From: Bacillus marasmi
Lineage (GTDB): Bacteria > Bacillota > Bacilli > Bacillales > Cytobacillaceae
NCBI RefSeq assembly: GCF_902168435.1
Contig: NZ_LR656166.1
Location: 1-64,000 of the forward strand
DNA length: 64,000 nucleotides
Direction: 5' to 3'
In this document: positions 11,336 through 45,648 of the stretch, one piece after another
Layout of the letters: each line of letters starts with the position of its first letter
Numbering within the stretch: the stretch's first letter is position 1
Made by a program: the position numbers and the translations under genes
The notes under the pieces: generated by a model
The model's input: only the letters and a program-made list of their open reading frames with translations
Database searches by the model: none
Told to the model about the DNA's origin: nothing

Positions 11336-11480
11336 ACCATTCTCCTCCGACAAAAAACATTATTCTAATATTCAGTTTACATTAACGAATATTTCATAAT
11401 GAGATATTATTTTACATTATTATGACCATTCTATGAACATTCTTAACTAAATTAGCGTTTGATTATCTTTTGCGAAGATA

Positions 11481-18040: not shown

Positions 18041-19798
18041 TTAACTCCTTTCAAGATTTTGCATATTTTTATTAAGAAATTGTTCCTCTAATTCCCCAGC
18101 GAGCATTGGGACTCCAAACATAAAACCTTGAACTTGATTACAGTTGCGCTCCTTTAAGAATTGTAATTGAGTGGGTTCTTCTACACCTTCGGCAAGAACA
18201 TTCAATTTAAGATTGTGCGCCAAAGCAATGATCGAACTAATTATTGCTTCATTACCTGCATCTTGCCCAATTTTTTCAATAAATTCACGAGCAATTTTTA
18301 AAGTATCAACAGGATAATTCGATAAATAAGAAAGTGAAGAATATCCTGTGCCAAAATCATCAATTGAAATGTTAATACCGATAGCCTTTAAAGCGTTAAG
18401 CTTTTGAATGGATAGATGAATATCTTTCATCGCAATACCTTCAGTAATTTCTAAATCTAAATATTTTGGCTTAAGCTCATACTTATGTAATACCTCTTTT
18501 ACAAGCTCGACAAGATCCTTTTGTCGAAATTGCCGTGGAGATAAATTTACTGCCATTTTTAATGGGAAACCGTTTTGGTGCCATATTTTTGCTTGTTGAC
18601 AAGCGGTTTTTAATACCCATTCACCAATCGGAACAATCATTCCAGCTTGTTCGGCCACTGGAATAAAATCAACAGGTGAAATCATACCGAGATCAGGGTG
18701 GTGCCATCTTAATAGAGCCTCAACCCCAATCATTTTCCCTGTTGGTATATCGAATTGCGGTTGATAAAAAACGGTAAATTCTTTTTTTTCTAAAGCTTTG
18801 CGAAGTTCCTTTTCTAGTAGATATTGTTTTGAATAATCATGGTGTTTCTCCTTTGAATATAAGCGGAAATGATTTCTTCCCTGCTCCTTTACAGCATACA
18901 TAGCGAAATCAGCCTTTTGCAAAAGGTCAGCTGAAGTTTCACCATCAATTGGATAAACAGCTATGCCCATACTTGGTGTTGTAATTACTTCATTGTCATT
19001 AATGATGTACGGCTTATTTAAAGAATGGAGGATTTTTGAAGCAATAATCATTACATCCTCAGGCCGGTTAATCCCTTTTAGTAAAATACTGAATTCGTCG
19101 CCTCCCTGTCTACATACAGTATCATTTTTGCGAAGTGACGCAACTAATCGCTTGGCCGTTTGCTTGAGAAGTTGATCACCGACATCATGTCCTAAAATGT
19201 CATTGATGGTTTTGAATCGATCTAAATCAAGCAACATAATTGCCAGCATTTCTTTATTTCTTTCTGCGTCTGCCAACGCCAGCTGAATAATTTCTGAAAA
19301 CAAGACACGATTTGGTAAGCCTGTCAATGAATCGTGTAGGGCCATCTGTTTAATTTTTTCTTCATTTATCTTGTTTTCAGTTATATCTTTCCCAATTCCA
19401 TAAATTCCTACAATTTCATTTTTTACATATATCGGTATATTAGTAAATTGTATGTGACACATTTTTCCTTCTTTATTAATAAAGGAAAGCTCGTATCTTT
19501 CTTTACTGCCATTTATCGTTTTTGTAAAATGATTCACAAACACATAGTGATTGTCTCTGTCGGGGATTACGTCAAGAAAAGGCTTCCCGATTAATTCCAT
19601 TGGGGAAAATCCAACCCAATCGCCCCATGGTGTATTACTACTAATAAAATTTCCTTTAAGGTCTAAGGAAAATACACCGTCAGGATGATGCTCAAATAAG
19701 GATTTATACCTTTCTTCATTCAGCGCTAATTCATTTTTTCGTTGCATAAAGGTAAATTGAGAATCTATCCATTTTTTGATCTTCTTAAATATATTCAT
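18041..19798 (-). CDS. PAS-GGDEF-EAL c-di-GMP turnover protein
   Basis: One PAS domain (about residues 25-150) is followed by a GGDEF domain with an intact RQGGDEF site and an EAL domain with GVEALLRW, EITEG and [10 protein letters not shown]. The next conserved motif, normally KIDRSF, reads KIAREF, so the Asp of the KxD pair is Ala and phosphodiesterase activity may be impaired. The frame extends to a TTG at 19882 without a ribosome binding site, and a TATAAT-like -10 lies just before that codon, so transcription probably starts inside the extension. ATG 19798 follows AAGGGAG. It is the first gene of a two-gene unit with the desaturase. Confidence 0.88.
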   Translation of the reverse strand: MNIFKKIKKWIDSQFTFMQRKNELALNEERYKSLFEHHPDGVFSLDLKGNFISSNTPWGDWVGFSPMELIGKPFLDVIPDRDNHYVFVNHFTKTINGSKERYELSFINKEGKMCHIQFTNIPIYVKNEIVGIYGIGKDITENKINEEKIKQMALHDSLTGLPNRVLFSEIIQLALADAERNKEMLAIMLLDLDRFKTINDILGHDVGDQLLKQTAKRLVASLRKNDTVCRQGGDEFSILLKGINRPEDVMIIASKILHSLNKPYIINDNEVITTPSMGIAVYPIDGETSADLLQKADFAMYAVKEQGRNHFRLYSKEKHHDYSKQYLLEKELRKALEKKEFTVFYQPQFDIPTGKMIGVEALLRWHHPDLGMISPVDFIPVAEQAGMIVPIGEWVLKTACQQAKIWHQNGFPLKMAVNLSPRQFRQKDLVELVKEVLHKYELKPKYLDLEITEGIAMKDIHLSIQKLNALKAIGINISIDDFGTGYSSLSYLSNYPVDTLKIAREFIEKIGQDAGNEAIISSIIALAHNLKLNVLAEGVEEPTQLQFLKERNCNQVQGFMFGVPMLAGELEEQFLNKNMQNLERS

Positions 19799-19969
19799 AT
19801 GATAATCTCCCTTAAACGCGGGAATGATAGAGCGCTTTATAGAATCAATCGTTCTGAATAAATGAACTAGATTTACAAACAATATTATATCAGAAAATTA
19901 TTTATTTTAGTACAAATTAGGAAATATGAAGGAGAGCAAGTACTTGGCTTATGGGTTAAGCGTTTTGCA

Positions 19970-22908: not shown

Positions 22909-24477
22909 ATGAGAAAACTATTAAGACCGAAGCCAATATCAAAGCTCATCGAACCTACAACAGACACATCAACAAAATTTTCAAGTGAGCTAGAATTAAA
23001 TAAGAAGATATTACAGGATGTTTTCCAACATTGTTCTGATATTGTATTCCGTTCGCTTCGCATCGGAGGACATGAAGCTGTACTTATTTTTATTGAAGGG
23101 ATTGTAGAAACGAAGGACATTGAGCTACACGGTTTAATGAATTTACAAGATTTTGCTCTCGGTGAACGGATTGAGCTTGAACAGTTAAAAGAAAAAATAG
23201 TTTCGATTGCGCAAGTTGATACGACAGATAATTTACAAGATGTGATTAATAAGGTTCTTCTAGGGGAAACGCTGTTGGTAGTTGATGGCATACGAGAAGC
23301 ATTGGTGTTGAGTGCCAAGGGAGGAATTCGTCGAGGAGTCTCAGAGCCGGAAACGGAAACATCAATTCGTGGACCACGCGAGGGATTTACCGAAAATATA
23401 CGTGTTAATACTGCTTTGGTACGACAAAAAATCCGTTCTAGTCATCTGAAAATGATTAGCAAAGAGGTGGGGACGGAAACAAAAACCTCTTTGGTGATCC
23501 TATATATGGATCACTTAGCTCCTAAGGAGTTGGTTGATGAGGTTCTCAATCGGATTGATCGAATTAAAATAGATGGGATTTTAGAGAGTGGTTATATTGA
23601 GGAACTAATCGAAGATAATCCATGGAGTATTTTCCCACAGATACAAAACAGCGAAAGGCCGGATACTGTTGCTGCCAATCTCCTAGAAGGTAGGGTATGC
23701 ATCTTAATAAATGGTACACCATTTTCGCTCATCTTACCGGCAACATTTTGGATGTTTTTACAGGCTAGTGAAGATTATTATCAACGTTTCCATATTTCAT
23801 TTTTCTTAAGATGGCTCCGCATCATTCTCATATTTTTGGCATTAGCGTTACCAGCTTTCTATATTGCGATTACGACCTATCATCAAGAAATGATTCCGAC
23901 GACATTGCTGTATAGTATTGCAGCGAGTCGTGAAGCCATACCGTTTCCAGCTTTTATTGAGGCAATGATTATGGAACTAGCCTTTGAAGCATTACGAGAA
24001 GCAGGAGTCCGTCTGCCAAAAGTTATTGGTCAAGCAGTCAGCATTTTGGGTGCTTTGGTAATCGGTTCTGCTGCTGTTGAGGCCGGAATTGTCTCTGCAC
24101 CGATGGTCATTGTAGTATCACTTACTGGGATTGCTTCATTCACAATTCCGAGGTTTAATATGGCGATCTCGATTCGCTTGCTCCGTTTCCCGATGATGAT
24201 GCTTGCGGCAGCGTTCGGTTTACTTGGAATTGTGATTGGCTCAATCTTTTTGCTTACCCACCTTTGTAAACTACGCTCATTTGGCGTACCATATTTTTCG
24301 CCTGTTGGACCTTTAAAGTGGGATGAATTAAAGGATGTTTTTATTCGTGCACCGTGGTGGGCTTTAGATAAGCGTCCGACTCAGGTGATAAAAGAGAATG
24401 TAGTCAGACAAGCATTTGGCCTATTTCCTGGAACAAGTGGAAGTTCAACTAATGATAAAAAGGGGAACGAGTCATGA
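22909..24477 (+). CDS. Spore germinant receptor A subunit (GerA family), operon 1
   Basis: This is the A subunit of a nutrient germinant receptor in the spore inner membrane. A cytoplasmic N-terminal domain of about 280 residues is followed by hydrophobic helices from about residue 290 (IILIFLALALPAFYIAITTYHQEMIP is the first, positions about 300-325) and a short basic tail. GPREGF near 155 and the DRIKIDGILESGYIEELI stretch are hallmarks. Its stop overlaps the start of the C subunit. The order A-C-D-B and sequence resemble gerK/gerU-type operons; the germinant is unknown. Confidence 0.93.
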   Translation: MRKLLRPKPISKLIEPTTDTSTKFSSELELNKKILQDVFQHCSDIVFRSLRIGGHEAVLIFIEGIVETKDIELHGLMNLQDFALGERIELEQLKEKIVSIAQVDTTDNLQDVINKVLLGETLLVVDGIREALVLSAKGGIRRGVSEPETETSIRGPREGFTENIRVNTALVRQKIRSSHLKMISKEVGTETKTSLVILYMDHLAPKELVDEVLNRIDRIKIDGILESGYIEELIEDNPWSIFPQIQNSERPDTVAANLLEGRVCILINGTPFSLILPATFWMFLQASEDYYQRFHISFFLRWLRIILIFLALALPAFYIAITTYHQEMIPTTLLYSIAASREAIPFPAFIEAMIMELAFEALREAGVRLPKVIGQAVSILGALVIGSAAVEAGIVSAPMVIVVSLTGIASFTIPRFNMAISIRLLRFPMMMLAAAFGLLGIVIGSIFLLTHLCKLRSFGVPYFSPVGPLKWDELKDVFIRAPWWALDKRPTQVIKENVVRQAFGLFPGTSGSSTNDKKGNES

Positions 24478-25631
24478 AGCGGTGGAGGGTGCAATTCACA
24501 CTGTGGATGAGTGTACTAATATTGTCAGGTTGTTGGGACCGGATCGAGGTCAATGATTTAGCTTTCATAAACGGAACAGGATTTGATTTATTAAAAGAAA
24601 ATCAAATCCGCGTGTCTGTTCAAGTTCCTCTCCCAAGTGCTTTGGGGGGAGCGGGTTCAAGCGGAGGTGGGGGAGGTACTGGCGGTAACAAACCATACTA
24701 TATTGATTCAACTGTAGGCAGGAATGTACGAGAAGCCAATGATTTATTACAAGGTAGGATGTCCCGGAAAAATTACTTTGCACATCGTAGAGTGATTGTA
24801 TTTGGTGAGGAACTGGCACGAGCGGGCTTAAAGAAATCAATGGATGTAATTGTTGAACAGCCTCAATCACGATTAACAACTTTTGTTTTAGTAACGAAGG
24901 GTGATGCGATTGATGTACTAAATGCTTCGCCTCATTTGGAGAAGCTCCCTGCTGAAGCAATTCGAGAATTAACGAAGGCGGGTTTTCATCGCGATGTACG
25001 TGATATTTTGAACGATTATTCGAGACCTGGTAAGGATCCCGTTATCCCATTGGTTGAGGTGAGTCTTACAAATAATAAAAAAGGACAAAAACAACAAGAA
25101 GTCTCAATCAATAAATTAGCTATTTTTAAAGATGATAAATTAAAGTTCATTACTAATAAGAAAGAATCCACAGGAGTTTATTGGTTGCTTGAACAAATGC
25201 GTCGGCGTGGTTATACATTTACGATTAAAGATGATGGTGAAATAAATGTCGGCATTATTAAATCGAAGGTTCGTCCTAAGTATAAGCTGAAAAATAATTT
25301 GCCAAATTTTACAGTTAATGTGAATGTCTCAGCCACTATGATGCAAAATGAGGCAAATCTAGAAATGAATGACCCAAAAAATTATCGAAAAGTAATAAAA
25401 ATCATGGAGGAACAGATAAAAAGTGAAATAGAAGCAATTCTTACACACTCCAAATCAGAGGGAATTGATATTTTTGGTTTTGGCTGGTATTTATCAAGGA
25501 AGGAAAGTAAATTATGGAAACAAAAATGGGAGAAGAATTGGGACAAGCTGTTAACTGAGCTTGACGTAAAGATTAACGTTGATGCAGAAATTGATGAAGC
25601 GATAAATTCAGCTTTAAAAATAAAGGAATGA
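24474..25631 (+). CDS. Spore germinant receptor C subunit (GerC family), operon 1
   Basis: This is the lipoprotein subunit of the germinant receptor. The signal peptide ends in a LSGC lipobox (Cys about residue 20), followed by WDRIEVNDLAFING, which is typical of Ger(x)C proteins. A Gly-rich stretch (LGGAGSSGGGGGTGGNK, about residues 57-73) is longer than in the second copy here, where a Gly/Ser/Arg stretch occupies the same place. The ATG overlaps the end of the A gene by 4 nt, so the two are translationally coupled. Confidence 0.93.
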   Translation: MKRWRVQFTLWMSVLILSGCWDRIEVNDLAFINGTGFDLLKENQIRVSVQVPLPSALGGAGSSGGGGGTGGNKPYYIDSTVGRNVREANDLLQGRMSRKNYFAHRRVIVFGEELARAGLKKSMDVIVEQPQSRLTTFVLVTKGDAIDVLNASPHLEKLPAEAIRELTKAGFHRDVRDILNDYSRPGKDPVIPLVEVSLTNNKKGQKQQEVSINKLAIFKDDKLKFITNKKESTGVYWLLEQMRRRGYTFTIKDDGEINVGIIKSKVRPKYKLKNNLPNFTVNVNVSATMMQNEANLEMNDPKNYRKVIKIMEEQIKSEIEAILTHSKSEGIDIFGFGWYLSRKESKLWKQKWEKNWDKLLTELDVKINVDAEIDEAINSALKIKE

Positions 25632-25635
25632 TCAT

Positions 25636-25857
25636 ATGTTTGGGACGATTGGGGTCATCATAAGTCTTATTATGTATATCGTTATTTTGAAGAATAGCTC
25701 CACCTTAGAGAAAAAACTATGGGTTTTAGTCCTATTCATGGTAATAGCAACAATCGGTGTTTCAATATTGATGGGATTTCACGTTTCTTTAGGAGCAAGT
25801 GCAAAATACCTTAATGAAACGGTGGGAAGTTGGACAAAGAGGGTGATTGCCCAATGA
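25636..25857 (+). CDS. Small D-type germinant receptor subunit, operon 1
   Basis: The 73-residue protein has two membrane helices (about residues 3-18 and 28-50) and a basic C-terminal tail. Small two-helix D proteins in gerA-type operons (such as gerKD and gerUD) modulate receptor output in Bacillus. They are distinct from the GerD lipoprotein. The gene lies 4 nt after the C subunit and its TGA overlaps the ATG of the B subunit. Identification rests on size, topology and position. Confidence 0.75.
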   Translation: MFGTIGVIISLIMYIVILKNSSTLEKKLWVLVLFMVIATIGVSILMGFHVSLGASAKYLNETVGSWTKRVIAQ

Positions 25858-26951
25858 GAGAACAAATTTCTTTATTTCAGTATATAGCGTTAATCGTAAA
25901 TTTCTTAATATCAGGGATTCTGAATACCTTGCCACAAATTATCGCACAAGTTGGAGAACAAAATACATGGATGGCGCCAATCCTTGTTTTTCCAATCATT
26001 TCTTTTTTGCTTATTTTTGTGATGGGGAATAGTGATAGAGTCAGAAAGCTCCAAAAATCGTTTCAAGGAAGTGATAAAACAATTTTACAAAAAAGCTTTA
26101 TTGTGTTGATGGGTTTGTTTTTAGTATTTGTTTATGTAAAAGATTTTCGGGCTATTCTTGATTTTATAACGACAGTATTACTTCCGAATACACCACGAGA
26201 TGCCATCATGATCATTCTGTCACTTGCATTAATATACATGGCGGTTAGTGGCTTGGAGGTAATAAGTCGCGTTACGGTAATCCAAATCATTATCTTTGGA
26301 GGAATCATCCTTCTGCTACCATTTATGCTTTTAAATGAAATTAAACTAGAAAATTTGGAGCCAATCGGTGGTCCAGGCTTTGGTACATCGATGCTAAAGT
26401 CTACATTTTTAATGTTTTCCTGGATTGGGGAGGCTATCATCGCCTTAATTCTTTTACTTGATGTTAAATCTCCAGAAAAAATAAAACGTGGAACGGTTTT
26501 GGGGATTGGAATTGGCACATTATTATTTGTTATCCTTACATTTTTGGACATCACAGTACTTGGAGTTAATCTTGTTAAAGAAACGACATATCCGAATTTG
26601 GCGCTCATTCAACAAATAAATATAACGGATTTTTTGGATCGCCTTGATTTAGTCATTGTAACGGTGTGGCTTCCAACATTTATTGCACGATTGGCCATCA
26701 CCCTATACGGGATAAACAAGGTATTCGGTCTATTTTTTCAAAATGACGAAGTACCTTTTAATATTGTCATCACTCCTCTGTGCCTGTTACTGGGAATTTT
26801 CTCTGTTATACTTTTTAAAAATAATCTCGACCATTTAGAGTACTCTTTTTTTTCGTGGGCCACAGAGGGATTGGTGCTAGAATGTTTGCTCCTTGGCTTA
26901 TTTTTAATTGTTGGAGTTACAAGTAAATCAAACAAGAAGATGGAAAACTAG
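25854..26951 (+). CDS. Spore germinant receptor B subunit (GerB family permease), operon 1
   Basis: This is the amino acid permease-like (APC superfamily) subunit that binds germinant. About ten hydrophobic helices span nearly the whole protein. The N-terminal REQISLFQYIALIVNFLIS segment and the WIGEAIIALILLLD region near 180 fit the spore permease family. The frame extends to a TTG at 25830, but ATG 25854 overlaps the previous stop (ATGA) and follows GAGGGTG, so it is chosen, giving 365 residues. A possible terminator was not found before the next gene 44 nt later. Confidence 0.92.
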   Translation: MREQISLFQYIALIVNFLISGILNTLPQIIAQVGEQNTWMAPILVFPIISFLLIFVMGNSDRVRKLQKSFQGSDKTILQKSFIVLMGLFLVFVYVKDFRAILDFITTVLLPNTPRDAIMIILSLALIYMAVSGLEVISRVTVIQIIIFGGIILLLPFMLLNEIKLENLEPIGGPGFGTSMLKSTFLMFSWIGEAIIALILLLDVKSPEKIKRGTVLGIGIGTLLFVILTFLDITVLGVNLVKETTYPNLALIQQINITDFLDRLDLVIVTVWLPTFIARLAITLYGINKVFGLFFQNDEVPFNIVITPLCLLLGIFSVILFKNNLDHLEYSFFSWATEGLVLECLLLGLFLIVGVTSKSNKKMEN

Positions 26952-27759: not shown

Positions 27760-27813
27760 AAAGAGAGATTGAAAAAATGATATAGGCTAATCTTTAATCA
27801 TTTTTTCAATCTC
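27760..27813 (-). terminator. Terminator of the sortase operon, overlapping the sortase end
   Basis: GAGATTGAAAAAATGAT at 27765-27781 is the perfect 17-bp inverse complement of 27797-27813. On the minus strand a T run (CTCTTTTTTT) follows the stem. The first arm is inside the last codons of the sortase gene. Confidence 0.75.
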
Positions 27814-28413
27814 ATGTCCATCAAGAACTTTTTCTGAAACCAACTCACAGGATACAATCAATCTTTGTTTATCTGAACGTTCCGGGTGACAAGTAATCAG
27901 TGTGACCATTGATTTTTCCTTGATCGGATATATGACTTCAACATTGGAGGGGTCAACGATTTTTTTATCAATCACTTTATAAGTTAATACTTTGTTTTGT
28001 GTGTATAACGTCATTTTGTCATTTTTACCCAGTTCGTCTAAACGATTGAAAAACTGTCCGTAAGTAAAGGAGCGGTGGCCGGCAATTGCGAAATTTGTGT
28101 TCATTTTGCCAAGTTCATGGGTGGAGGAGCTTGATGGAAGATGTCCAACCGCAAATTTTATTTGTTCTGGTCCAGCTCCTTCTGTCATTGGAGTTTTTAA
28201 TTCGATTTTTGGAATTTCTAAAATGCCAATCGTATCGCCTTCTTTTGGTGCCACACCTGTTTTTTCATTTGGCGCTGTCTCGGTAAAAGATAATGATGTG
28301 TATTCCTCTACTAATTGCTTCTGTTCAAAATATGTCTTTCCTTTTACATAAACAATAAAGATTAACACTGCTATTCCTGTAAAAATAAATAAGTTTCCTA
28401 GTTTCTTCATCAT
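27787..28413 (-). CDS. srtD: Class D sortase
   Basis: This is a cell-envelope transpeptidase that cleaves LPxTG-like signals and joins proteins to peptidoglycan. An N-terminal membrane helix (about residues 6-24) is followed by the sortase barrel. The active-site triad is visible as His in FAIAGHRS, Cys in LITCHP and Arg in KQRLIV. The compact size of about 208 residues and TLITCHP sequence suit class D. The frame extends to a GTG at 28422 that lies in the AAGGTGG ribosome binding site; ATG 28413 is preferred. It lies downstream of two exported repeat proteins, one with an LPKTG signal, its likely substrate. Confidence 0.9.
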   Translation of the reverse strand: MMKKLGNLFIFTGIAVLIFIVYVKGKTYFEQKQLVEEYTSLSFTETAPNEKTGVAPKEGDTIGILEIPKIELKTPMTEGAGPEQIKFAVGHLPSSSSTHELGKMNTNFAIAGHRSFTYGQFFNRLDELGKNDKMTLYTQNKVLTYKVIDKKIVDPSNVEVIYPIKEKSMVTLITCHPERSDKQRLIVSCELVSEKVLDGHEIEKMIKD

Positions 28414-28426
28414 TTTCACCACCTTA

Positions 28427-28457
28427 TTAAAAAAAAGGAGGGTGATCAGCCCTCCTG
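28427..28457 (-). terminator. Partial terminator between the LPKTG gene and the sortase
   Basis: On the minus strand GGAGGGC and CCCTCC form a GC-rich stem around a 6-nt loop, and eight T follow. It precedes the sortase ribosome binding site, so the sortase is probably expressed by read-through at a lower level than the surface proteins. Confidence 0.8.
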
Positions 28458-28503
28458 GATGTAAAAATTAATCCTTATTACACAAATGAAAAATTAAACT
28501 TGA

Positions 28504-29868
28504 TTAGCAAGCTTTACTTACATTAAATCTTCTTAAAGCGATACCAACGGATAATAACAATGCAGAAAGCATTAATAGAATGCTAGCGTCCATTACAGAA
28601 CCTGTTTTAGGTAATGTGTTGTCAGCGTTGTCAGTTTTCACTTCATTGTTATTCTTGTTGTTATCGTTTTTAGTATCGTTGTTAGGAGTTTGTTGTTGAT
28701 CTCCTGGGTTATTGTTGTCGTCACCAGGGTTTTGATTGTCATCACCAGGGTTGTTGTTGTCATCACCAGGGTTGTTGTTGTCATCACCAGGGTTGTTGTT
28801 GTCATCACCAGGGTTTTGATTGTCGTCACCAGGGTTTTGATTGTCATCACCAGGGTTTTGGTTGTCATCACCAGGGTTTTGATTGTCGTCACCCGGATTT
28901 TGGTTGTCATCACCAGGGTTTTGATTGTCGTCACCGTTTGTTGGGTTTTTAGTATAATTCTCTTCTTCAAGAACACCAATATGTTGATCGCCAATGATTG
29001 GAGTGTCTTTAGTATCAACGATTACTAAACCGCCATGTTCCCAAGTGTACTCATCAGTAACAACTTTTTCCTTTTCAATAACACCAACATGAGCATCTCC
29101 GATAGGAGTATCCTTTGCATCTACGATTACTACACCAGTATGAGTATATTCATAGTCTTCAGTAATGATTTCTGTTCCTTCAAGAACTCCTGCGTGAAGG
29201 TCACCAAGAACTGGTGATTCAACGTCAGCAATTACTAAACCGCCGTGAGTATATTCTACATCTTCAGTTTGATAGTGTTCAAGTTCACCAACACCAGCGT
29301 GAACATCACCAACAACTGGAAGGCTTGTATCTACAGTTACTAGTCCACTCTTAGTATGAGTAGCATCTTCAGTAGTAGAGTTATTAGCTTCAATTACACC
29401 TACATGAGTATCACCGATTAGTGAATCCTTTAGGTCAACTCCTAGTACACCACCAGAAGTAGTTGTACCATCTTCAGTTACAACTTCTTCTTTCCCAAGA
29501 AGATCTAAACCTAAGTTTCCAACGATAGGAAGGTTTAAGTCGACATTAACTAAAGAGCTTTTAGAAAAGCTAGTAACACTTGGGTCAATTCCTTCAGGAT
29601 TTCCAGTAACAACTGGTGCACTTGTAGGGATAACTGGCGTTTCTAGAGCTGTAGCAGCTACTTCTTCAGTAGCAGCAACTGGTGCTGCAAGTGTTGATAA
29701 CACGTTTTGTGCTGCAACCTGTTCAACTACAGGAGTAACATTTGTTAATTCTTTTGTTACATCAAGCTCTTCTGCGCCTGCATGACCTCCGAATAATGAT
29801 AGACCTAAAGCAAATGCTCCAGTATAGACAATACTTTTTAACGATTTAACAACAGTTTGTTTTTTCAT
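28504..29868 (-). CDS. LPKTG-anchored surface protein with 35-residue repeats
   Basis: The family was not recognised. A signal peptide ends near GGHAGA-EE. Residues about 105-310 contain six tandem repeats of about 35 residues built on GDxHxGVxE followed by TEDxxxxxHxG and LVIVD. A low-complexity stalk of NPGDDNQ and NPGDDNN heptads follows, then an Asn/Asp/Lys-rich stretch. The C-terminus has LPKTG, a hydrophobic helix and a basic tail (RRFNVSKAC), a complete sorting signal. It is in one operon with a second repeat protein upstream and the class D sortase downstream. Its job at the surface is unknown. Confidence 0.85.
   Translation of the reverse strand: MKKQTVVKSLKSIVYTGAFALGLSLFGGHAGAEELDVTKELTNVTPVVEQVAAQNVLSTLAAPVAATEEVAATALETPVIPTSAPVVTGNPEGIDPSVTSFSKSSLVNVDLNLPIVGNLGLDLLGKEEVVTEDGTTTSGGVLGVDLKDSLIGDTHVGVIEANNSTTEDATHTKSGLVTVDTSLPVVGDVHAGVGELEHYQTEDVEYTHGGLVIADVESPVLGDLHAGVLEGTEIITEDYEYTHTGVVIVDAKDTPIGDAHVGVIEKEKVVTDEYTWEHGGLVIVDTKDTPIIGDQHIGVLEEENYTKNPTNGDDNQNPGDDNQNPGDDNQNPGDDNQNPGDDNQNPGDDNQNPGDDNNNPGDDNNNPGDDNNNPGDDNQNPGDDNNNPGDQQQTPNNDTKNDNNKNNNEVKTDNADNTLPKTGSVMDASILLMLSALLLSVGIALRRFNVSKAC
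28700..28935 (-). repeat. 21-bp tandem repeats coding for NPGDDNQ/N heptads
   Basis: About eleven in-frame copies of a 21-bp unit encode NPGDDNQ or NPGDDNN. Copies differ mainly at third positions and at Q versus N. Such repeats vary in number between strains by slippage. Confidence 0.85.
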
Positions 29869-29894
29869 GATTATCTCCTTCTTCTTAATTATTT

Positions 29895-31655
29895 TTATAT
29901 GGCTAAGAAGAAGGGAGCTATCGGTGGCTGAACTGGTGGAGACTCAGTCCACTGTGTAGACAAGGTTTTTAAAACGCCCTGTGTCTCGTTGTTTTTTGAC
30001 ACTTCAAGGTTATAGCCAAAGATTAGGTCTGCAAATGTTCCTGAACCTCCGCTAAGACCTGCAGTACTTGAAGAAGTGCTGCTGCTTGAAGCAGAAGGAG
30101 CGGATACCGCTACAGTGATACCTGTTGAATCGGCTGTTTTTTTGTTTAATTTCTCTATCTCTAATCCTAATTGCGCCGTTTCATCAACATCTTGATATAA
30201 TACTGAATGATTTCCATCATCTTGTAATGCTTGTAAGAATTCACCAACAGGAGAATTGATTACGTCTAATAAGTCAAGACTTTGACTATCAGTAGAAACG
30301 GTATTATCTGCTAAATCAGTTTGTGTAGCATCCTGTTGTGATTGAGATTCATTACCGCCAATCTCTTTTCCTGGAACAGTTTTTCCTGGATCGCTACCTT
30401 TTTCACTAGGAGTAGGAGTGCCTGTACCTGGTAATGAAGGACCGATCACGACTGGCGGAATATATTTATCGCCAGGATTCTCGAATTCCCCAACACCAAC
30501 GTGGACATCACCTACAGGTGAATCCTCTACATCAACGATAACAAGACCTCCTGAAGAAGTTTTACCTTCATCAGTGACGACTTCGTTATACTCACCGACG
30601 CCAATGTGTTGATTGCCCAATATGTCGTTATTAACATCAGCTACTATTAATCCTGTATGAATTTCAGTTCGTTCAGGGCTGATTAGTCCGGATACTTCGC
30701 CAATACCTGTGTGAATATCACCAATTAATGGAGCACTAACCCCAGCCGATACTATGCTTCCTGCATAGGTCGTAGTGTCGCCTGAAACAGTTTTGCTACT
30801 TTCAAGTACGCCAACATTGGTTGTTAATAACGAGTTATTAATACCTAAATTGACAAGGCTTGCACTTGAAGCAAATCCATCTTCTGTAAGATTCTTCGTA
30901 TTAGAGAGCAATCCGACATTCAAGTTACCTAAAAGTGCTGAATCAGTTACAGCGAGTCCAAGTAATCCAGCTTGAACTGATGATTCACCATTACCAGCTT
31001 GAACTGATGGTCCTGAAAATAAATCCAATCCAACGTTACCAAGTGAGCCTAATCCTAGATTAAGATTTAGTAAATTTGAACCGGGTTCAGAAGCATCGAT
31101 GCTTAATAATGATGTTGGCATACTAGAGTTACTGCTTTGGCCGCCTAACAGATTAATATTTAAGCCTAACAAACCAATACTTAATAACGGCTTTGGTCTT
31201 GGTACATCAGTTGATGGTCCTTCGTCAACCGAAGTTACGTTAGTAGGGGTATTAGGAATCACAGAATTTGAAACTGTGTAGGTTGGAGCAGCTTGTGCTT
31301 CAGTTTCACGAATAACATTTCCCGATTTGACCTCTTGAGTAACAGCTTGTGAAGTTTCAACTACTGCTGTTTCAACCACTTGAGCTGCGGCGTCCAAATT
31401 TTCAGATGTTACTTCAACTTGGTTAGCCTGTTCATTGGTTGAGCTTGACTCTGAATCTGAATCTTTCACCAATAAGCTTCCTAGTCCATCAATAATATTT
31501 GTAAGTTTATGTAAGCCTAACAAAGATTGATGAGAAGAATATGAATTTGAATTAGGGATAGAGTCAACGGTTCCTCCTTTTTCTTCAGCTTGTACCATTG
31601 AAGGAGCGGTAAAGATAAACAAGGTAGACAAAACGTAAAAAATCCGTTTTTTCAT
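29895..31655 (-). CDS. Secreted protein with the same 35-residue repeats, no cell-wall anchor
   Basis: The family was not recognised. A signal peptide ends near SMVQA-EE. After a Ser/Thr-rich region, residues about 190-400 hold degenerate then regular copies of the repeat seen in the next gene (LIGDIHTGIGE, ILGNQHIGVGE, SPVGDVHVGVGE). A Pro/Gly/Thr linker and a Ser-rich segment follow. The C-terminus is PPVQPPIAPFFLAI, with no LPxTG and no membrane helix. GGAGGTG precedes the ATG. It is the first gene of the operon, 26 nt before the LPKTG protein. It may bind the anchored partner or the wall. Confidence 0.75.
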   Translation of the reverse strand: MKKRIFYVLSTLFIFTAPSMVQAEEKGGTVDSIPNSNSYSSHQSLLGLHKLTNIIDGLGSLLVKDSDSESSSTNEQANQVEVTSENLDAAAQVVETAVVETSQAVTQEVKSGNVIRETEAQAAPTYTVSNSVIPNTPTNVTSVDEGPSTDVPRPKPLLSIGLLGLNINLLGGQSSNSSMPTSLLSIDASEPGSNLLNLNLGLGSLGNVGLDLFSGPSVQAGNGESSVQAGLLGLAVTDSALLGNLNVGLLSNTKNLTEDGFASSASLVNLGINNSLLTTNVGVLESSKTVSGDTTTYAGSIVSAGVSAPLIGDIHTGIGEVSGLISPERTEIHTGLIVADVNNDILGNQHIGVGEYNEVVTDEGKTSSGGLVIVDVEDSPVGDVHVGVGEFENPGDKYIPPVVIGPSLPGTGTPTPSEKGSDPGKTVPGKEIGGNESQSQQDATQTDLADNTVSTDSQSLDLLDVINSPVGEFLQALQDDGNHSVLYQDVDETAQLGLEIEKLNKKTADSTGITVAVSAPSASSSSTSSSTAGLSGGSGTFADLIFGYNLEVSKNNETQGVLKTLSTQWTESPPVQPPIAPFFLAI

Positions 31656-31723
31656 CTTTTTTCACCTCCTCTTCAATTAAATAAAGTTAAATGCCAAAAT
31701 GTGACATTAATCACTTTGATACA

Positions 31724-31752
31724 AGTCTAATAAAAAATTTGATAATTTTCAA
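31724..31752 (-). promoter_or_regulatory. Sigma-A promoter of the sortase/repeat-protein operon
   Basis: On the minus strand TTGAAA (31752-31747) and TAGACT (31729-31724) are 17 nt apart. It lies about 70 nt before the first start codon. Confidence 0.55.
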
Positions 31753-33757: not shown

Positions 33758-34363
33758 TTAAGACACCATCCTTGCTAAATAAACAAATGTAAAAATAAAA
33801 ATCCAGACAACATCTAGAAAATGCCAATATAAACCAATAATAAACACTTTACGAGCAGTAACTGGAGTTAATCCTCTTTGCAAAAGCTGGATGATAATTA
33901 ACACTGCCCAACCAATTCCTAAGCTGACATGTAATCCATGTGTTCCTAGGAGGACAAAGAAGCTTGATAGGAAGGCACTTGTTTGCATTGTAGCACCTTC
34001 ACTCACATAATGAATAAATTCTGTGACTTCCATATAAATAAAACCAGCACCGAGCAGCAATGTTATCACTAACCACGTTAATAAACCTTTAAGGTTAGCT
34101 CTGCGCATTTCATAGATTGCTAGACCGCAAGTGAAACTACTCGTAAGCAGAAGAACCGTTTCAATCAGGATATCTTTTAAAATAAAGATATCTTGTGGGG
34201 TAGGTCCTCCAGCATGTCGCTCACCTAAAACACCGTATACTGCGAAAAGGGTAGCAAACAGGACGATTTCAGCACCTAAGAAAATCCAAAAACCAAAGAT
34301 ATTTAAGCGATTTTGTTCCGTCTGATATTCTAATGGTAATGTTGCATCAAGCTTAGCTGACAT
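33758..34363 (-). CDS. qoxC: Cytochrome aa3 quinol oxidase subunit III
   Basis: Subunit III is a five-helix membrane protein needed for stability of the oxidase. Typical stretches are NIFGFWIFLGAEIVLFATLFA near the start (residues about 18-38) and FVLLGTHGLHVSLGI in the second half. The length of 201 residues is normal. Its ATG overlaps the end of qoxB, and a GAGGTG site lies within that gene. Confidence 0.95.
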   Translation of the reverse strand: MSAKLDATLPLEYQTEQNRLNIFGFWIFLGAEIVLFATLFAVYGVLGERHAGGPTPQDIFILKDILIETVLLLTSSFTCGLAIYEMRRANLKGLLTWLVITLLLGAGFIYMEVTEFIHYVSEGATMQTSAFLSSFFVLLGTHGLHVSLGIGWAVLIIIQLLQRGLTPVTARKVFIIGLYWHFLDVVWIFIFTFVYLARMVS

Positions 34364-36332
34364 GATTTTTCACCTCTTCATCAACCTTTTTCCATTTGCC
34401 CTCAGTTTGGATGATTTCATCGATTTGTACATGGTAGCCATCGTTATAATCGAAGGAACGAGCTATTAGGCATGCGATAATTCCAATAGAGGCAACTGCA
34501 GCTGCAATTTTCCACTCAAAAACAAGGAAGAAACCAGCTACTCCAAAGACGACACTCATAATGAATGGCAAGCCAGTATTACTTGGCATGTGGATTTCTT
34601 TGTATTCTTTGTCTTCATAATGCATGTCGATATTGTTTTTCTTCATATACCAAAACGCATCGAGTGAATTTACTTCCGGTTGAATCGCAAAGTTGTAATG
34701 CTGAACAGGGGAAGCGGTAGCCCATTCAAGCGTGCGTGCATTCCAAGGGTCAGAGGAAATATTGCGATCTGCAAAACGAGCGCTCCAGTAAATGTTATAG
34801 ACTAAAGCAGCGAATCCAGCAGCAAGGATAACAGAGCCAATCGCTGAAACTAAGAACAATGGTGCGAAGCCTGACTCAGCCGAATAAGTGTAAGCACGGC
34901 GGACAGCACCATCAAGACCTAAGAAGAACATTGGCATAAACGTCACATTAAACCCAATTGTGAATAACCAAAAATGCCATTTTCCAATTTTTTCATTTAA
35001 CATAAAGCCAAACATTTTAGGCCACCAGTAATAAAGCCCAGCAAATACCGCAAATACAACACCAGGAATTAATACGTAGTGGAAGTGGGCAACTAGAAAC
35101 AGCGTATTATGATATTGATAGTCGGCTGCACCCATCGCAAGCATAACACCCGTAACCCCACCAATTATAAAGCAAGGTACAAATGCTAGTGCCCAAAGCA
35201 TAGCAGTTGAGAATTGAATCCGTCCTTTTCTCATTGTGAAAAGCCAATTGAAAACCTTAACACCAGTAGGAATCGCAATCATCATCGTAGTTATTGAGAA
35301 TACAGAGTTAACAGCAGGTCCTGCGCCCATTGTATAGAAATGATGAACCCAAACGAGCATGCTCAAAACAGCAATTGCAACGATCGAAACGACCATTGAT
35401 TTATAACCATATAAAGTTTTGCGCGAGAATGTTGATATGACTTCAGAAAACATACCAAATGCAGGGAGGACAACGATATATACTTCAGGATGTCCCCATA
35501 GCCAAAATAGATTTGCCCAAAGCATATCAAGACCGCCACCAGATAAAGTGAAAAAGTGTGTACCAAAAATACGGTCAAAGGTCATGAGTGCTAATGCAAC
35601 CGTGAAGATAGGGAATGAAGCAACAATAATAACCGAAGCGATAAATGATGTCCAAGTAAACATCGGCATTCTCATCAAGGTCATGCCTTTTGTTCTCATT
35701 TTTAGAATTGTCACAATAAAGTTAATTCCGGTCATTAATGTACCAATACCGGCTATTTGCAAGGCGATTGCATAATAGTTATTTCCAATGCCTGGTGTGA
35801 ATTCTTTACCGGCCAGTGGGAAATAAGAAGTCCAGCCTGCGTCAGGTGAACCGCCGACTACAAAGGAAATGTTGAAAAGCATCGCTCCGACAAAGAAAAG
35901 CCAAAAGCTTAGCGCGTTCAGTTGCGGGAAAGCGACGTCCCGCGCACCAATTTGCAGAGGTATTACCACGTTCATAATTCCGATTAAGAGTGGCATAGCT
36001 GCAAACAGTATCATAATAACGCCATGTGTTGTGAAAATTTCGTTATAGTGCTGAGCATCTAAAAATTGCATATCGGGACGTGAAGTTTGGGCCTTCATTA
36101 ATAGCCCATCAACTCCACCGCGGAAAAACATTAAGACGCCAGAAAGGATATACATAATCCCGATTTTTTTATGGTCTACAGTCGTAATCCATTCTGTCCA
36201 TAACCAGCGCCATTTTTTAAAATAAGTAACACCAGCAACAATTCCAACCATTGATAGTAAAATCGAAATCTGGGATCCAATAATTAACGGATCACCATTC
36301 AGCATGAAAAATTCCTTCCAATTAATGTCCAT
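34353..36332 (-). CDS. qoxB: Cytochrome aa3 quinol oxidase subunit I
   Basis: This is the catalytic subunit carrying haem a and the haem a3-CuB site where oxygen is reduced. The CuB ligands and cross-linked Tyr region is WGHPEVYIVVLP, followed by HHFYTMG and the haem ligands in HFHYVLIPG. About fourteen membrane helices are seen. The longest frame begins earlier, but ATG 36332 follows GGAGGTG and matches family N-termini (MDINWKEFF). It overlaps the end of qoxA by 11 nt. Confidence 0.96.
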   Translation of the reverse strand: MDINWKEFFMLNGDPLIIGSQISILLSMVGIVAGVTYFKKWRWLWTEWITTVDHKKIGIMYILSGVLMFFRGGVDGLLMKAQTSRPDMQFLDAQHYNEIFTTHGVIMILFAAMPLLIGIMNVVIPLQIGARDVAFPQLNALSFWLFFVGAMLFNISFVVGGSPDAGWTSYFPLAGKEFTPGIGNNYYAIALQIAGIGTLMTGINFIVTILKMRTKGMTLMRMPMFTWTSFIASVIIVASFPIFTVALALMTFDRIFGTHFFTLSGGGLDMLWANLFWLWGHPEVYIVVLPAFGMFSEVISTFSRKTLYGYKSMVVSIVAIAVLSMLVWVHHFYTMGAGPAVNSVFSITTMMIAIPTGVKVFNWLFTMRKGRIQFSTAMLWALAFVPCFIIGGVTGVMLAMGAADYQYHNTLFLVAHFHYVLIPGVVFAVFAGLYYWWPKMFGFMLNEKIGKWHFWLFTIGFNVTFMPMFFLGLDGAVRRAYTYSAESGFAPLFLVSAIGSVILAAGFAALVYNIYWSARFADRNISSDPWNARTLEWATASPVQHYNFAIQPEVNSLDAFWYMKKNNIDMHYEDKEYKEIHMPSNTGLPFIMSVVFGVAGFFLVFEWKIAAAVASIGIIACLIARSFDYNDGYHVQIDEIIQTEGKWKKVDEEVKNHVS

Positions 36333-37293
36333 GCTGTACACCTCCATCATCGTGGTTCATATCATGTTTCTCAGAGCTTTCAGATTCATCTTCTTCTTTA
36401 AAAATTTCACCTTGGTAACCATGTGTTTTATAGAGCTCTGGGTTTGTGTAGGTTTTAGAGTCCATTTCAGCGTGGTTAACCCATTCTAAATGCGTATTTG
36501 AATAAGTAAGTCTACCTAAATGAGTCGGCTCTAATAATTCTTCATATTTCTTTTCTGTAAGCTTAGGAGCAGTTTTTTTAACGTCCTTCACCCAGTTTTC
36601 GAAATCTATTTCTGTTTGCGCCAGAACCTCAAATTCCATTTCAGCGTAGCCACGACCATTAAAATTTGTGTTTCTGCCAAAGTAAGAGCCAGGATGATCA
36701 GCGACAACGTACATTTGCGTTTCCATTTTATTCATTGTGTATTTTTGACCTGCAAGGGCAGGAATCCAAAATGATTGCATTGTTCCGGCTGAGGTCAATT
36801 TAAATTGAACAGGGCGATCTTCGGGTATATTTACGTAGTTTACTGTTTCAATGCCTTGTTCAGGGTAACTAAAAATCCATTTCCAATCAGCAGAAGTAAC
36901 ATGAACGATAAGGGGCTCTTTTTCTTCATATCCTTCTGGTACCTTTTCGAGAGCATAGATGGTTTTTACAGTAGGAATTGTTAAGGCGATCACAATAAGA
37001 ATGGGTATTGCGGTCCAAATAATTTCGAGAAGGGTACTGCCGTGTTCCTCAGGGGGCTCATAATCCTTGTTTTCTGGCTTCTCTCGATATTTCCAAACAA
37101 TGTACCCAAATAGACCAAAAACAACAACAACGACGAGTAACATAAATATTAGTGACCAGTTGATTAAATCTAAAATGCTTCGTGCGACTGGACCCTGTGG
37201 GTCAAATACGACCATTTTAGAATCACATCCACTTAGTAGCAACAAGGATGTGATGGTAAGGAATGCAATGAATATCAGTTTGGGGGCTTTCAT
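36322..37293 (-). CDS. qoxA: Cytochrome aa3 quinol oxidase subunit II
   Basis: Subunit II is a lipoprotein (LLLLSGC lipobox near residue 23) with two further membrane helices and an extracytoplasmic cupredoxin domain. The Cys and His ligands of the CuA centre are absent (the region reads GRNTNFNGRGYAEMEF), which marks a quinol oxidase rather than a cytochrome c oxidase. An acidic, His-rich tail (EKHDMNHDDGGVQHGH) closes the protein. It is first in qoxABCD. Confidence 0.95.
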   Translation of the reverse strand: MKAPKLIFIAFLTITSLLLLSGCDSKMVVFDPQGPVARSILDLINWSLIFMLLVVVVVFGLFGYIVWKYREKPENKDYEPPEEHGSTLLEIIWTAIPILIVIALTIPTVKTIYALEKVPEGYEEKEPLIVHVTSADWKWIFSYPEQGIETVNYVNIPEDRPVQFKLTSAGTMQSFWIPALAGQKYTMNKMETQMYVVADHPGSYFGRNTNFNGRGYAEMEFEVLAQTEIDFENWVKDVKKTAPKLTEKKYEELLEPTHLGRLTYSNTHLEWVNHAEMDSKTYTNPELYKTHGYQGEIFKEEDESESSEKHDMNHDDGGVQHGH

Positions 37294-37450: not shown

Positions 37451-37470
37451 TTTGTGACAAAGGTCACAAA
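37451..37470. promoter_or_regulatory. Rex/Fnr-like operator between qoxA and mscS
   Basis: TTTGTGACAAAGGTCACAAA is a perfect dyad in its outer eight bases. It fits both TTGTGA-N6-TCACAA (Rex-like) and TGTGA-N6-TCACA (Fnr/Crp-like). GTTTG and CAAAC extend the symmetry on both sides. It lies 158 nt before qoxA and 145 nt before the MscS gene. Confidence 0.55.
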
Positions 37471-44451: not shown

Positions 44452-45648
44452 TTACTCTCCCTGTATTTTGTTAGTGTAAGATTCGTTTGAAACACCTGTA
44501 CGTCTAATGTTAAAAGTGGAATCGACGCTTACTTCTAGTTCTTGGAAATGCTCATCCCAATTATTTTTAAGTTTTTTCCATGCTTTTGGATCTGCTCGAT
44601 GGATGACTTCGCCAAATCCATAAATATCGACACCGAGTTCTTGGGCTTTTTTTATGGAAGAAGTTATGATGTCCTCATTTACCATATTTACTGCTTTTTC
44701 TAGTTTTTTAATGGATTCAGGGTTTGTTAGATTAATTCTACAGGCAACCTCTCCAATATTGGCCTCTGCATTGATTTTAATATCTATATTTGGCTTCCCG
44801 TTGATTACTTTCCCGGATACCTTTGACTTCGAACGAACAATCTCAATCACGAGGCTTTTACCATCAGGACAGGGTATATCACCAACTGTATTCGTTACAT
44901 TGTCAGTAATATAATTCAATCCTTTACTTTCTTTTTCATTAAGCCAGCCAACTAGCTTATCTGTTTTGAAAACAGCAATGTTTTTATACTGGAGGCGAGC
45001 GTATGGTTCAATTCTTGTTACATTATCCATAGTAGCTGCCTTATCAACATTTCCCTTTATCGTAATACCCGTTAAGACAGCATTCTTTCCTGCAGCGGTT
45101 ATGTCCGCGATTAGTTCATCCATTTGCACTGCGACAGTAGGAGCCCAAGCTGATTCTGATGATTCTAATGAAGCATGTAGCTTGTTAGCAGGAATTTTTT
45201 CAAGTGATGTAAGATTTTCAAGAACATCTTTTGCTTTTATGTCCTTTGACACGACAATATAAAAGTCCTTACGAAATTCCGGGTCCCTCGTTAACATTTC
45301 CAGTGGTTTACTAATCCCTTCCTTGGCCAGCTCCTCTCCGACCACGAGCATTTGAAGATGAGAGAAATAAAGTTTACGTGGACTGATGGTTGTCATTCTT
45401 CGTATAGCTTCAAAAATATATTGACCTTTTTCTGAATATGTTGTGACAGGGGTGCGTCCACTTCCACCTTTTTGAGAAGCAACTTCACTAGGCTCTACAA
45501 CTTGAGCTGTAATCTCATATCCTGCATCACCTTTATCGATAGACATGGCTACTACTAAGGCGAGCTCGTTTAATTCTCGACGGTTCCAGCATCCTGTAAG
45601 AATGAGGAGACAAGGAATAAAAATCAGGAAAAATAATATGTTTTTCAT
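44452..45648 (-). CDS. Spore germinant receptor C subunit (GerC family), operon 2
   Basis: The lipoprotein signal ends in LTGC (Cys about residue 20), followed by WNRRELNELALVVAMSIDK. The rest follows Ger(x)C proteins, including the C-terminal helical region with GVDIYGFGEVIHR. In the stretch equivalent to the Gly-rich insert of operon 1 it has EVASQKGGSGRTP. It is 33 nt after the A gene. Confidence 0.93.
   Translation of the reverse strand: MKNILFFLIFIPCLLILTGCWNRRELNELALVVAMSIDKGDAGYEITAQVVEPSEVASQKGGSGRTPVTTYSEKGQYIFEAIRRMTTISPRKLYFSHLQMLVVGEELAKEGISKPLEMLTRDPEFRKDFYIVVSKDIKAKDVLENLTSLEKIPANKLHASLESSESAWAPTVAVQMDELIADITAAGKNAVLTGITIKGNVDKAATMDNVTRIEPYARLQYKNIAVFKTDKLVGWLNEKESKGLNYITDNVTNTVGDIPCPDGKSLVIEIVRSKSKVSGKVINGKPNIDIKINAEANIGEVACRINLTNPESIKKLEKAVNMVNEDIITSSIKKAQELGVDIYGFGEVIHRADPKAWKKLKNNWDEHFQELEVSVDSTFNIRRTGVSNESYTNKIQGE

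Follow-up and report, generated by a model that had tools for sequence, protein, structure and literature searches.

A stretch of 64,000 nucleotides from Bacillus marasmi (Bacillota; Bacilli; Bacillales; Cytobacillaceae; NCBI RefSeq assembly GCF_902168435.1, contig NZ_LR656166.1, positions 1 to 64,000), hereafter the window, carries three minus-strand genes in the order A, B and S, which encode an exported protein, an exported protein with an LPXTG sorting motif and a sortase. The comparison of this locus with others in Bacilli genomes revealed that the most constant part of A is its C-terminal tail, with the signature QW-x3-PP-x2-PP (x, any residue), rather than the 35-residue repeat that A has in common with B. 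This tail marks a large family of paired surface proteins in bacilli. The unit is the A-B pair, and the sortase accompanies the LPXTG motif. We hold with about even confidence that the locus of B. marasmi represents, in a form that carries a sortase, a two-gene surface module more widespread among Bacilli.

The original prediction, made from the letters of the window, said nothing of the conserved tail. It described a dedicated surface structure in which a class D sortase anchors one of two exported proteins sharing a GDxHxGV repeat. An anchored member with a co-exported partner remains a reasonable picture because no known domain matching the repeat was found and the genes are not scattered; the sortase class and the repeat as a defining feature had to be abandoned.

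The C-terminal tail of A

Combined searches with the repeat and with the tail yielded 52 A loci in 46 Bacilli genomes. All 52 A proteins contain W-x7-PP in their tail, 49 contain QW and 47 contain W-x3-PP-x2-PP, the distance from the motif to the C-terminus varying from 4 to 29 residues. When the A of the window was compared with that of six genomes, the last 25 residues were more alike than the rest of the protein in all six comparisons, with values ranging from 92% versus 56% (G004) down to 40% versus 37% (G795). In five distant loci (G300, G763, G859, G842 and G667), A is unmatched by the repeat profiles and retains the signal peptide and a tail resembling that of the window, with a W and then prolines close to an aromatic end. 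The A of G300 does have internal repeats of another kind, at shifts of 33, 35 and 68. These five proteins therefore argue against the shared repeat as the defining feature of the system, as do 26 of the 49 pairs, in which a complete non-LPXTG B has no sortase as a neighbour.

The tail was used as a query in two profiles. The first (A3, 17 tails), searched in 398 class genomes at an E value of 0.01, pointed to 19 places in 18 genomes, four of which (G744, G587, G353 and G712) were short frames, judged false and discarded; the 15 kept comprise 7 training loci and 8 new ones. The second (A8, 24 tails), searched in 101 family genomes, pointed to 34 places in 29 genomes, one of which (G197) was judged false, there being no A. 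The 33 loci kept comprise 7 training loci and 26 new ones, in which the A frame was picked by the motif pattern at the place found by the profile.

No curated Pfam or NCBIfam family matched the A protein of the window, its repeat or its tail, and the best match of the tail profile in the PDB was at chance level (E 0.95). The strings NAPPSPPP, NAPPSQPP, ESPPVQPP, GDAHVGV and GDVHAGV have no occurrence in the 5.39 million papers searched, and the titles and opening lines of abstracts listed on the topic contain no description of the A-B pair.

An exported partner of several types

In 49 of the 52 loci, the gene directly after A encodes an exported protein of the B type (47 identified by open reading frame (ORF), and G186 and G031 by frames). 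The B-type gene lies on the same strand within about 60 nt of A, the three exceptions being f42 genomes. The signal-peptide test was passed by 51 of the 52 A genes, the last one being cut by a contig end. It is a lax test, passed by 31 of 95 control ORFs; compared with this control, the excess of exported neighbours has a p-value of 4e-14, calculated on relatives that are not independent.

The partners fall into 16 LPXTG proteins with GDxHxGV-type repeats, 20 HASETAK-type proteins, six proteins with a weak domain resembling GH25 muramidases (glycosidases) and five other repetitive proteins, with two partners that do not form one ORF and three loci without any. Among the literature matches listed when HASETAK and HASENAK were included, all came from unrelated fields. 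The GH25-like proteins (FIDVEPA; loci L176, L178, L180, L186, L187 and L188) also carry a HASETAK-type segment in five of six cases. On PF01183, the three of these six that were tested scored between 19.5 and 23.2 bits, under the cut-off of 27, and it is possible that these proteins are wall-active partners of A.

The sortase follows the type of B. The sortase profile matched at 15 of the 16 LPXTG-type loci and at none of the 36 other A loci. At 26 of the latter, B is complete, exported and without LPXTG, at least 551 nt of sequence extend beyond it, and no sortase is a neighbour (15/16 versus 0/26, Fisher p 1.6e-10); the others are five loci with B cut by the sequence end, two not read whole and three from f42. 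Two genomes (G300 and G072) each have both an LPXTG-type and a HASETAK-type pair.

The net charge of B is negative in all 47 proteins counted. A is acidic in the 16 LPXTG-type loci and in the five other-repetitive ones, and has a median charge of +15 with HASETAK-type and +11.5 with GH25-type partners (range across both, -1 to +28). A profile of HASETAK-type B signal peptides matched 11 of the 16 LPXTG-type B proteins at E<1 (E 0.03 for that of the window), five failing. Nine other rows, which include three small f42 genes, gave 6 matches. At the same threshold, 9 of 161 controls were matched, the true B of G025 among them, as were 2 of the 52 A proteins. This does no more than hint at a resemblance between the B signal peptides of different types.

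The locus of Bacillus marasmi

The features of the locus are listed in Table 1. The two intergenic gaps measure 26 nt (A-B) and 81 nt (B-S). The direction, the exact ends of the three ORFs, the sizes of A and B and their exported nature all agree with the original prediction.

Table 1. Features of the A-B-S locus, in positions of the window
Feature	Position	Strand	Basis
Gene S, sortase, 211 aa	27787-28422	-	ORF, PF04203
Terminator-like hairpin and T run, between B and S	28436-28456	-	sequence
Gene B, exported acidic 454-aa LPXTG protein	28504-29868	-	ORF
LPKTG sorting motif of B, then hydrophobic stretch and RR	28600-28614	-	TIGR01167
NPGDDNQ linker of B, 21-bp DNA repeat x 11.3	28699-28935	-	sequence
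Repeat region of B, six 35-residue units, five with strict motif	28951-29571	-	sequence
Signal peptide of B, residues 1 to ~32	29773-29868	-	cleavage site by eye
Gene A, exported 586-aa protein without LPXTG	29895-31655	-	ORF
C-terminal tail of A, QWTESPPVQPPIAPFFLAI, signature QW-x3-PP-x2-PP	29898-29954	-	family comparison
Repeat region of A, six ~35-residue units, three with strict motif	30474-31190	-	sequence, blastp to B
Signal peptide of A, residues 1 to ~24	31584-31655	-	cleavage site by eye
CRP/FNR-like palindrome TGTGACATTAATCACT, upstream of A and downstream of its candidate promoter	31700-31715	.	sequence
Candidate promoter of A, TTGAAA-17-TAGACT	31724-31752	-	no enrichment over shuffles

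The common repeat was confirmed by blastp, with 37% identity between A and B over the repeat region (E 6e-31). Self-matching at a shift of 35 reaches 114 in B (shuffled maxima 23 ± 6) and 83 in A (27 ± 6). In line with the prediction of about six copies, six can be counted by eye in each protein, but only five in B and three in A have the strict motif G[DN]xHxG[VI], which occurs in no other non-overlapping ORF of at least 100 residues in the window. The repeat had been thought to belong to no named family, and a characterised domain was sought in Pfam, NCBIfam and the PDB; none matched, the best PDB match of the repeat profile being at chance level (E 0.48). At an E value of 1, the A of the window has no Pfam or NCBIfam match, and B has an LPXTG anchor match and others at chance level. 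The other members gave scattered weak matches (apolipoprotein-like, phasin-like, LPXTG), which were not taken as a family of the repeat or of the tail. Both proteins of the window are acidic; A has no cysteine and B a single one, at its very end.

The LPKTG motif proposed for B is followed by a hydrophobic stretch and a basic end with arginines, as in LPXTG wall anchors. B scores 16.2 bits on TIGR01167 (cut-off 15.9); on PF00746 (cut-off 20) it remains below with hmmscan (14.9), and reaches 19.7 in the genome search, or 20.4 when counted with its neighbours.

Co-occurrence of the three genes

A repeat profile (A1) was built from six B repeat regions, a repeat-only profile being preferred because many of the top matches of a query with whole B were to the low-complexity linker; Bacillus sp. 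DNRA2 was a B query match with a named organism. A1 matched in 7 of 193 genomes from the family, in 8 of 397 from the order, in 7 of 398 from the class and in 1 of 398 from the phylum, these sets overlapping and each count including the window's own genome. Three of the order-level matches come from a single f42 genus and are proteins of the A type, with both the repeats and the tail. In these f42 loci (L070, L071 and L072), A is followed in the place of B by a small protein (MQKNR...) that fails the signal-peptide test.

A B protein with both repeats and LPXTG is present at 17 loci, one of which (G617) was found later. A lies directly upstream of B in 16 of them (exception, G025) and S after B in 16 (exception, G617), two of these sortases having broken frames. 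The three genes are found together at 15 of the 17 loci, which answers the question of their co-occurrence raised by the original prediction: they are not scattered. The outer neighbours of the locus differ between families, and two genomes (G057 and G415) are near copies.

In G025, the 1.7 kb or so where A would be expected (L025 6110-7813) contains no clear gene, and no tail appears in the three frames of the strand. In G002 (L022 7228-7934) and G072 (L065 9195-9811), a break at a similar place in the protein divides the sortase into two frames, and either a sequencing error or a real inactivation could account for this. Carriage by plasmids or phages was considered and rejected: tblastn gave no match in plasmids for the B of the window, one GH25-type B and one HASETAK-type A, nor in phages for one A, and a scan of viral_contigs found no relative of the repeat.

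The sortase and its class

S was rightly predicted to be a sortase (PF04203, E 3e-29, 101.7 bits, cut-off 26.6). What we take to be its catalytic residues, H116, C178 and R187, are retained in a six-row alignment, with the exception of the broken G002 frame. The class D assignment fails: S scores 73.3 bits on NF033746 (curated cut-off 165) and 83.4 on a second class D model, NF058671 (cut-off 140), and two sortases of its own genome (C25 and C4), which serve as positive controls, pass class D with 200.3 and 180.8 bits. The highest subclass score of S is for class E (NF033747, 116.9 bits, below the cut-off of 160), followed by class C (NF033745, 114.7 bits, below 160). Six further locus sortases are likewise below every class cut-off, with 61-80 bits on NF033746, 88-137 on NF033747 and 109-136 on NF033745.

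In the genome of the window, PF04203 matches at six places and the PF00746 anchor cut-off is passed at nine, B included. S is therefore linked to its locus, yet is not the only sortase of the cell. On a 34-row tree, the branch with the two class D sortases is separated from the branch with the locus sortases (support 100/100), where five other sortases join all 13 of the locus sortases in the tree. Locus sortases thus cluster, a single origin being neither shown nor rejected (p-AU 0.27). The trees include 13 of the 16 locus sortases, leaving out that of G415 and the broken ones of G002 and G072; from the 34-row tree, eight class B-like and four lipoprotein-like rows were dropped by judgement, along with one frameless row.

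Control sites and neighbouring genes

The original prediction of a single promoter is not supported, promoter-like sites being as frequent in the window (16) as in shuffles (16.9) and a terminator-like hairpin lying between B and S. Within the genus, the three loci of the sortase type (G000, G004 and G002) all retain the candidate promoter of A and the CRP/FNR-like palindrome TGTGACATTAATCACT. Of the 26 A loci examined, the remaining 23 gave no such palindrome. The window has one other exact match to TGTGAN6TCAC[AT], also palindromic, at 37453-37468. Some 160 nt downstream of it begins a minus-strand ORF (36322-37293), which is followed by a COX1-type oxidase gene (34353-36350). Because of this second site, A and the oxidase region might have a respiratory regulator in common.

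In all 11 close loci examined, the window included, the B-S gap contains a T run and an inverted repeat of the form GGAGGG...CCCTCC or nearly so, and an equivalent was found in 5 of 400 random 90-nt stretches of the window. G300 has a longer hairpin with a T run, seen by eye and missed by the script. In G492 and G072, the hairpin sequence is present, but folds of the whole B-S gap do not include this hairpin. Where the hairpin exists, we infer that S is expressed at a lower level than B, either through read-through or from a start of its own. No regulatory RNA was matched by Rfam at gathering score between 20000 and 40000 of the window.

Elsewhere in the window, two PAS-GGDEF-EAL proteins (9140-11353 and 18041-19882) relate to c-di-GMP turnover. 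Spore germination is represented by GerA and permease genes (22909-26951), one gene away from S, and by a GerAC gene within 44452-45648.

A possible assembly and its alternatives

These observations can be arranged into a mechanism. S would cut B at LPKTG and link it to peptidoglycan, so that the 35-residue repeats of B would project from the wall on the NPGDDNQ linker; that S anchors B is very probable. A would be exported together with B and would then dock on it, here through the common repeats and elsewhere through other contacts, for instance a basic A on an acidic B. In all likelihood A and B function together, and we lean slightly towards a direct binding of the two. For the window, contact through the repeats is the simplest idea because the two proteins have the repeat in common and each of them is acidic. 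The tail of A would bind a partner or a site common to these bacteria, be it the wall, the membrane or an exported factor. The tail is taken as a docking motif because it is constant while the body of A and its partner change, an assignment that we find plausible without quite favouring it. The hairpin before S would keep the sortase scarcer than its substrate.

Several observations weigh against this arrangement. The loci that supplied the tail profiles had first been detected by way of B or of the first tail profile, which makes their re-finding circular; only the 8 new loci of A3 and the 26 of A8 escape this, the latter with a frame picked by the motif. The counts include close relatives (G057 and G415, many g4 genomes), and the p-values overstate independence. 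The acidity of both proteins of the window means that no charge-held contact operates here, and the five other-repetitive pairs are equally acidic on both sides. In the three f42 genomes, an A with repeats and tail has no adjoining exported B or sortase, and G025 has B and S without A. Finally, four distant S-bearing loci (G763, G667, G859 and G842) have no room for a hairpin, S starting at the end of B or within about 15 bases of it.

The main rival explanation is a chaplin-like coat, in which an anchored B seeds a beta-rich surface sheath extended by free A, as long and short chaplins do. Chaplins with their sortase in Streptomyces, and CwpA and CwpB with SrtE in Actinoplanes, are described as sortase-anchored exported proteins, as proposed here for B, and free exported relatives with a short beta-type domain are also reported for chaplins (PMC13251363, as far as the consulted part of the article goes). 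The same part describes anchored hydrophobic proteins that depend on a class E sortase and are likened to long chaplins. The pairing of an anchored protein with a free relative that has the same short repeat, together with the top subclass score of S for class E, the class anchoring such hydrophobic surface proteins in Actinoplanes, speak for a coat of this kind. However, S misses the class E cut-off, and class C is the higher-scoring model for two of the six further locus sortases. Both A and B are acidic and have no cysteine pair, with none in A and a single terminal one in B, unlike the chaplin domain, described in the consulted part of PMC13251363 with three GN motifs 12-13 residues apart and two cysteines. 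The Pfam chaplin domain matches neither A nor B at an E value of 1, A bears an extra tail, and in the five distant loci it is unmatched by the repeat profiles. We consider a chaplin-like coat unlikely.

Somewhat less likely still, the tail could be a processing or export signal for an unlinked enzyme, A being cut or a peptide freed, with B merely co-regulated. A short and near-invariant motif near the extreme C-terminus of proteins whose middles are unrelated would fit this idea. The variable distance from the motif to the end does not, nor does the tail have the hydrophobic-plus-basic end of known sorting signals, and the near-constant presence of B after A would be left unexplained.

A structure of the spore or sporangium surface, made at sporulation, is improbable. 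The window does have germination genes close to the locus, and SpoIVA was found in 20 of the 23 carrier genomes tested, but not in the other three (G842, G859 and G617), and carriers without SpoIVA argue against a purely spore-related role. The outer neighbours also differ in other genomes, and in G921 SpoIVA is interrupted by a stop. This internal TAG in the SpoIVA frame (G921:C1:504954-505394) suggests that the carrier has lost sporulation.

That A and B are ordinary unrelated surface proteins, neighbours by descent with the tail as an inherited relic, is very improbable: the patchy spread of B-repeat matches among the A1 genome sets would agree with it, but A is best retained in its tail, and the order of A and B persists across several families and different B types.

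Comparison with other sortase systems

Sortase-assembled pili also combine a sortase with adjacent substrates. They are built by class C enzymes from two or more LPXTG pilins with a pilin lysine motif, whereas S misses the class C cut-off and LPXTG is present on one of the two exported proteins. YhcS of Bacillus subtilis is a class D sortase. In the B. marasmi genome, the sortases that pass the class D cut-off are other genes than S. YhcS and YhcR resemble the present locus in that a putative Bacillus sortase is associated with an exported protein with a sorting motif, and the opening lines of the abstract make no mention of a paired A protein (PMC3222306). The sipW-bsaABCRSD operon of Clostridium perfringens also combines exported surface proteins with an internal terminator and read-through, but BsaA polymerises without the neighbouring sortase SrtB (PMC7395162, in the part consulted). 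The three genes of the present locus include neither a SipW-type signal peptidase nor two-component genes.

Concluding remarks

Going beyond docking, and more tentatively, QW-x3-PP-x2-PP could be a new C-terminal plug, the constant tail of a co-exported carrier that fits a common receptor, with body and partner exchangeable. The exchangeable partners would be a sortase-anchored repeat fibre, an unanchored acidic repeat protein and a glycosidase-like protein. If true, this would reveal a modular surface-display system of bacilli acting beside sortases and sometimes together with them.

The series from no anchor through a glycosidase-like partner to LPXTG with a sortase illustrates how an older pair may recruit a sortase substrate. 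A motif of about 10 residues that predicts an exported neighbour in 49 of 52 cases also provides a handle on genes without a curated family. If the tail does have a receptor, it would represent a new way of retaining proteins at the Gram-positive surface.

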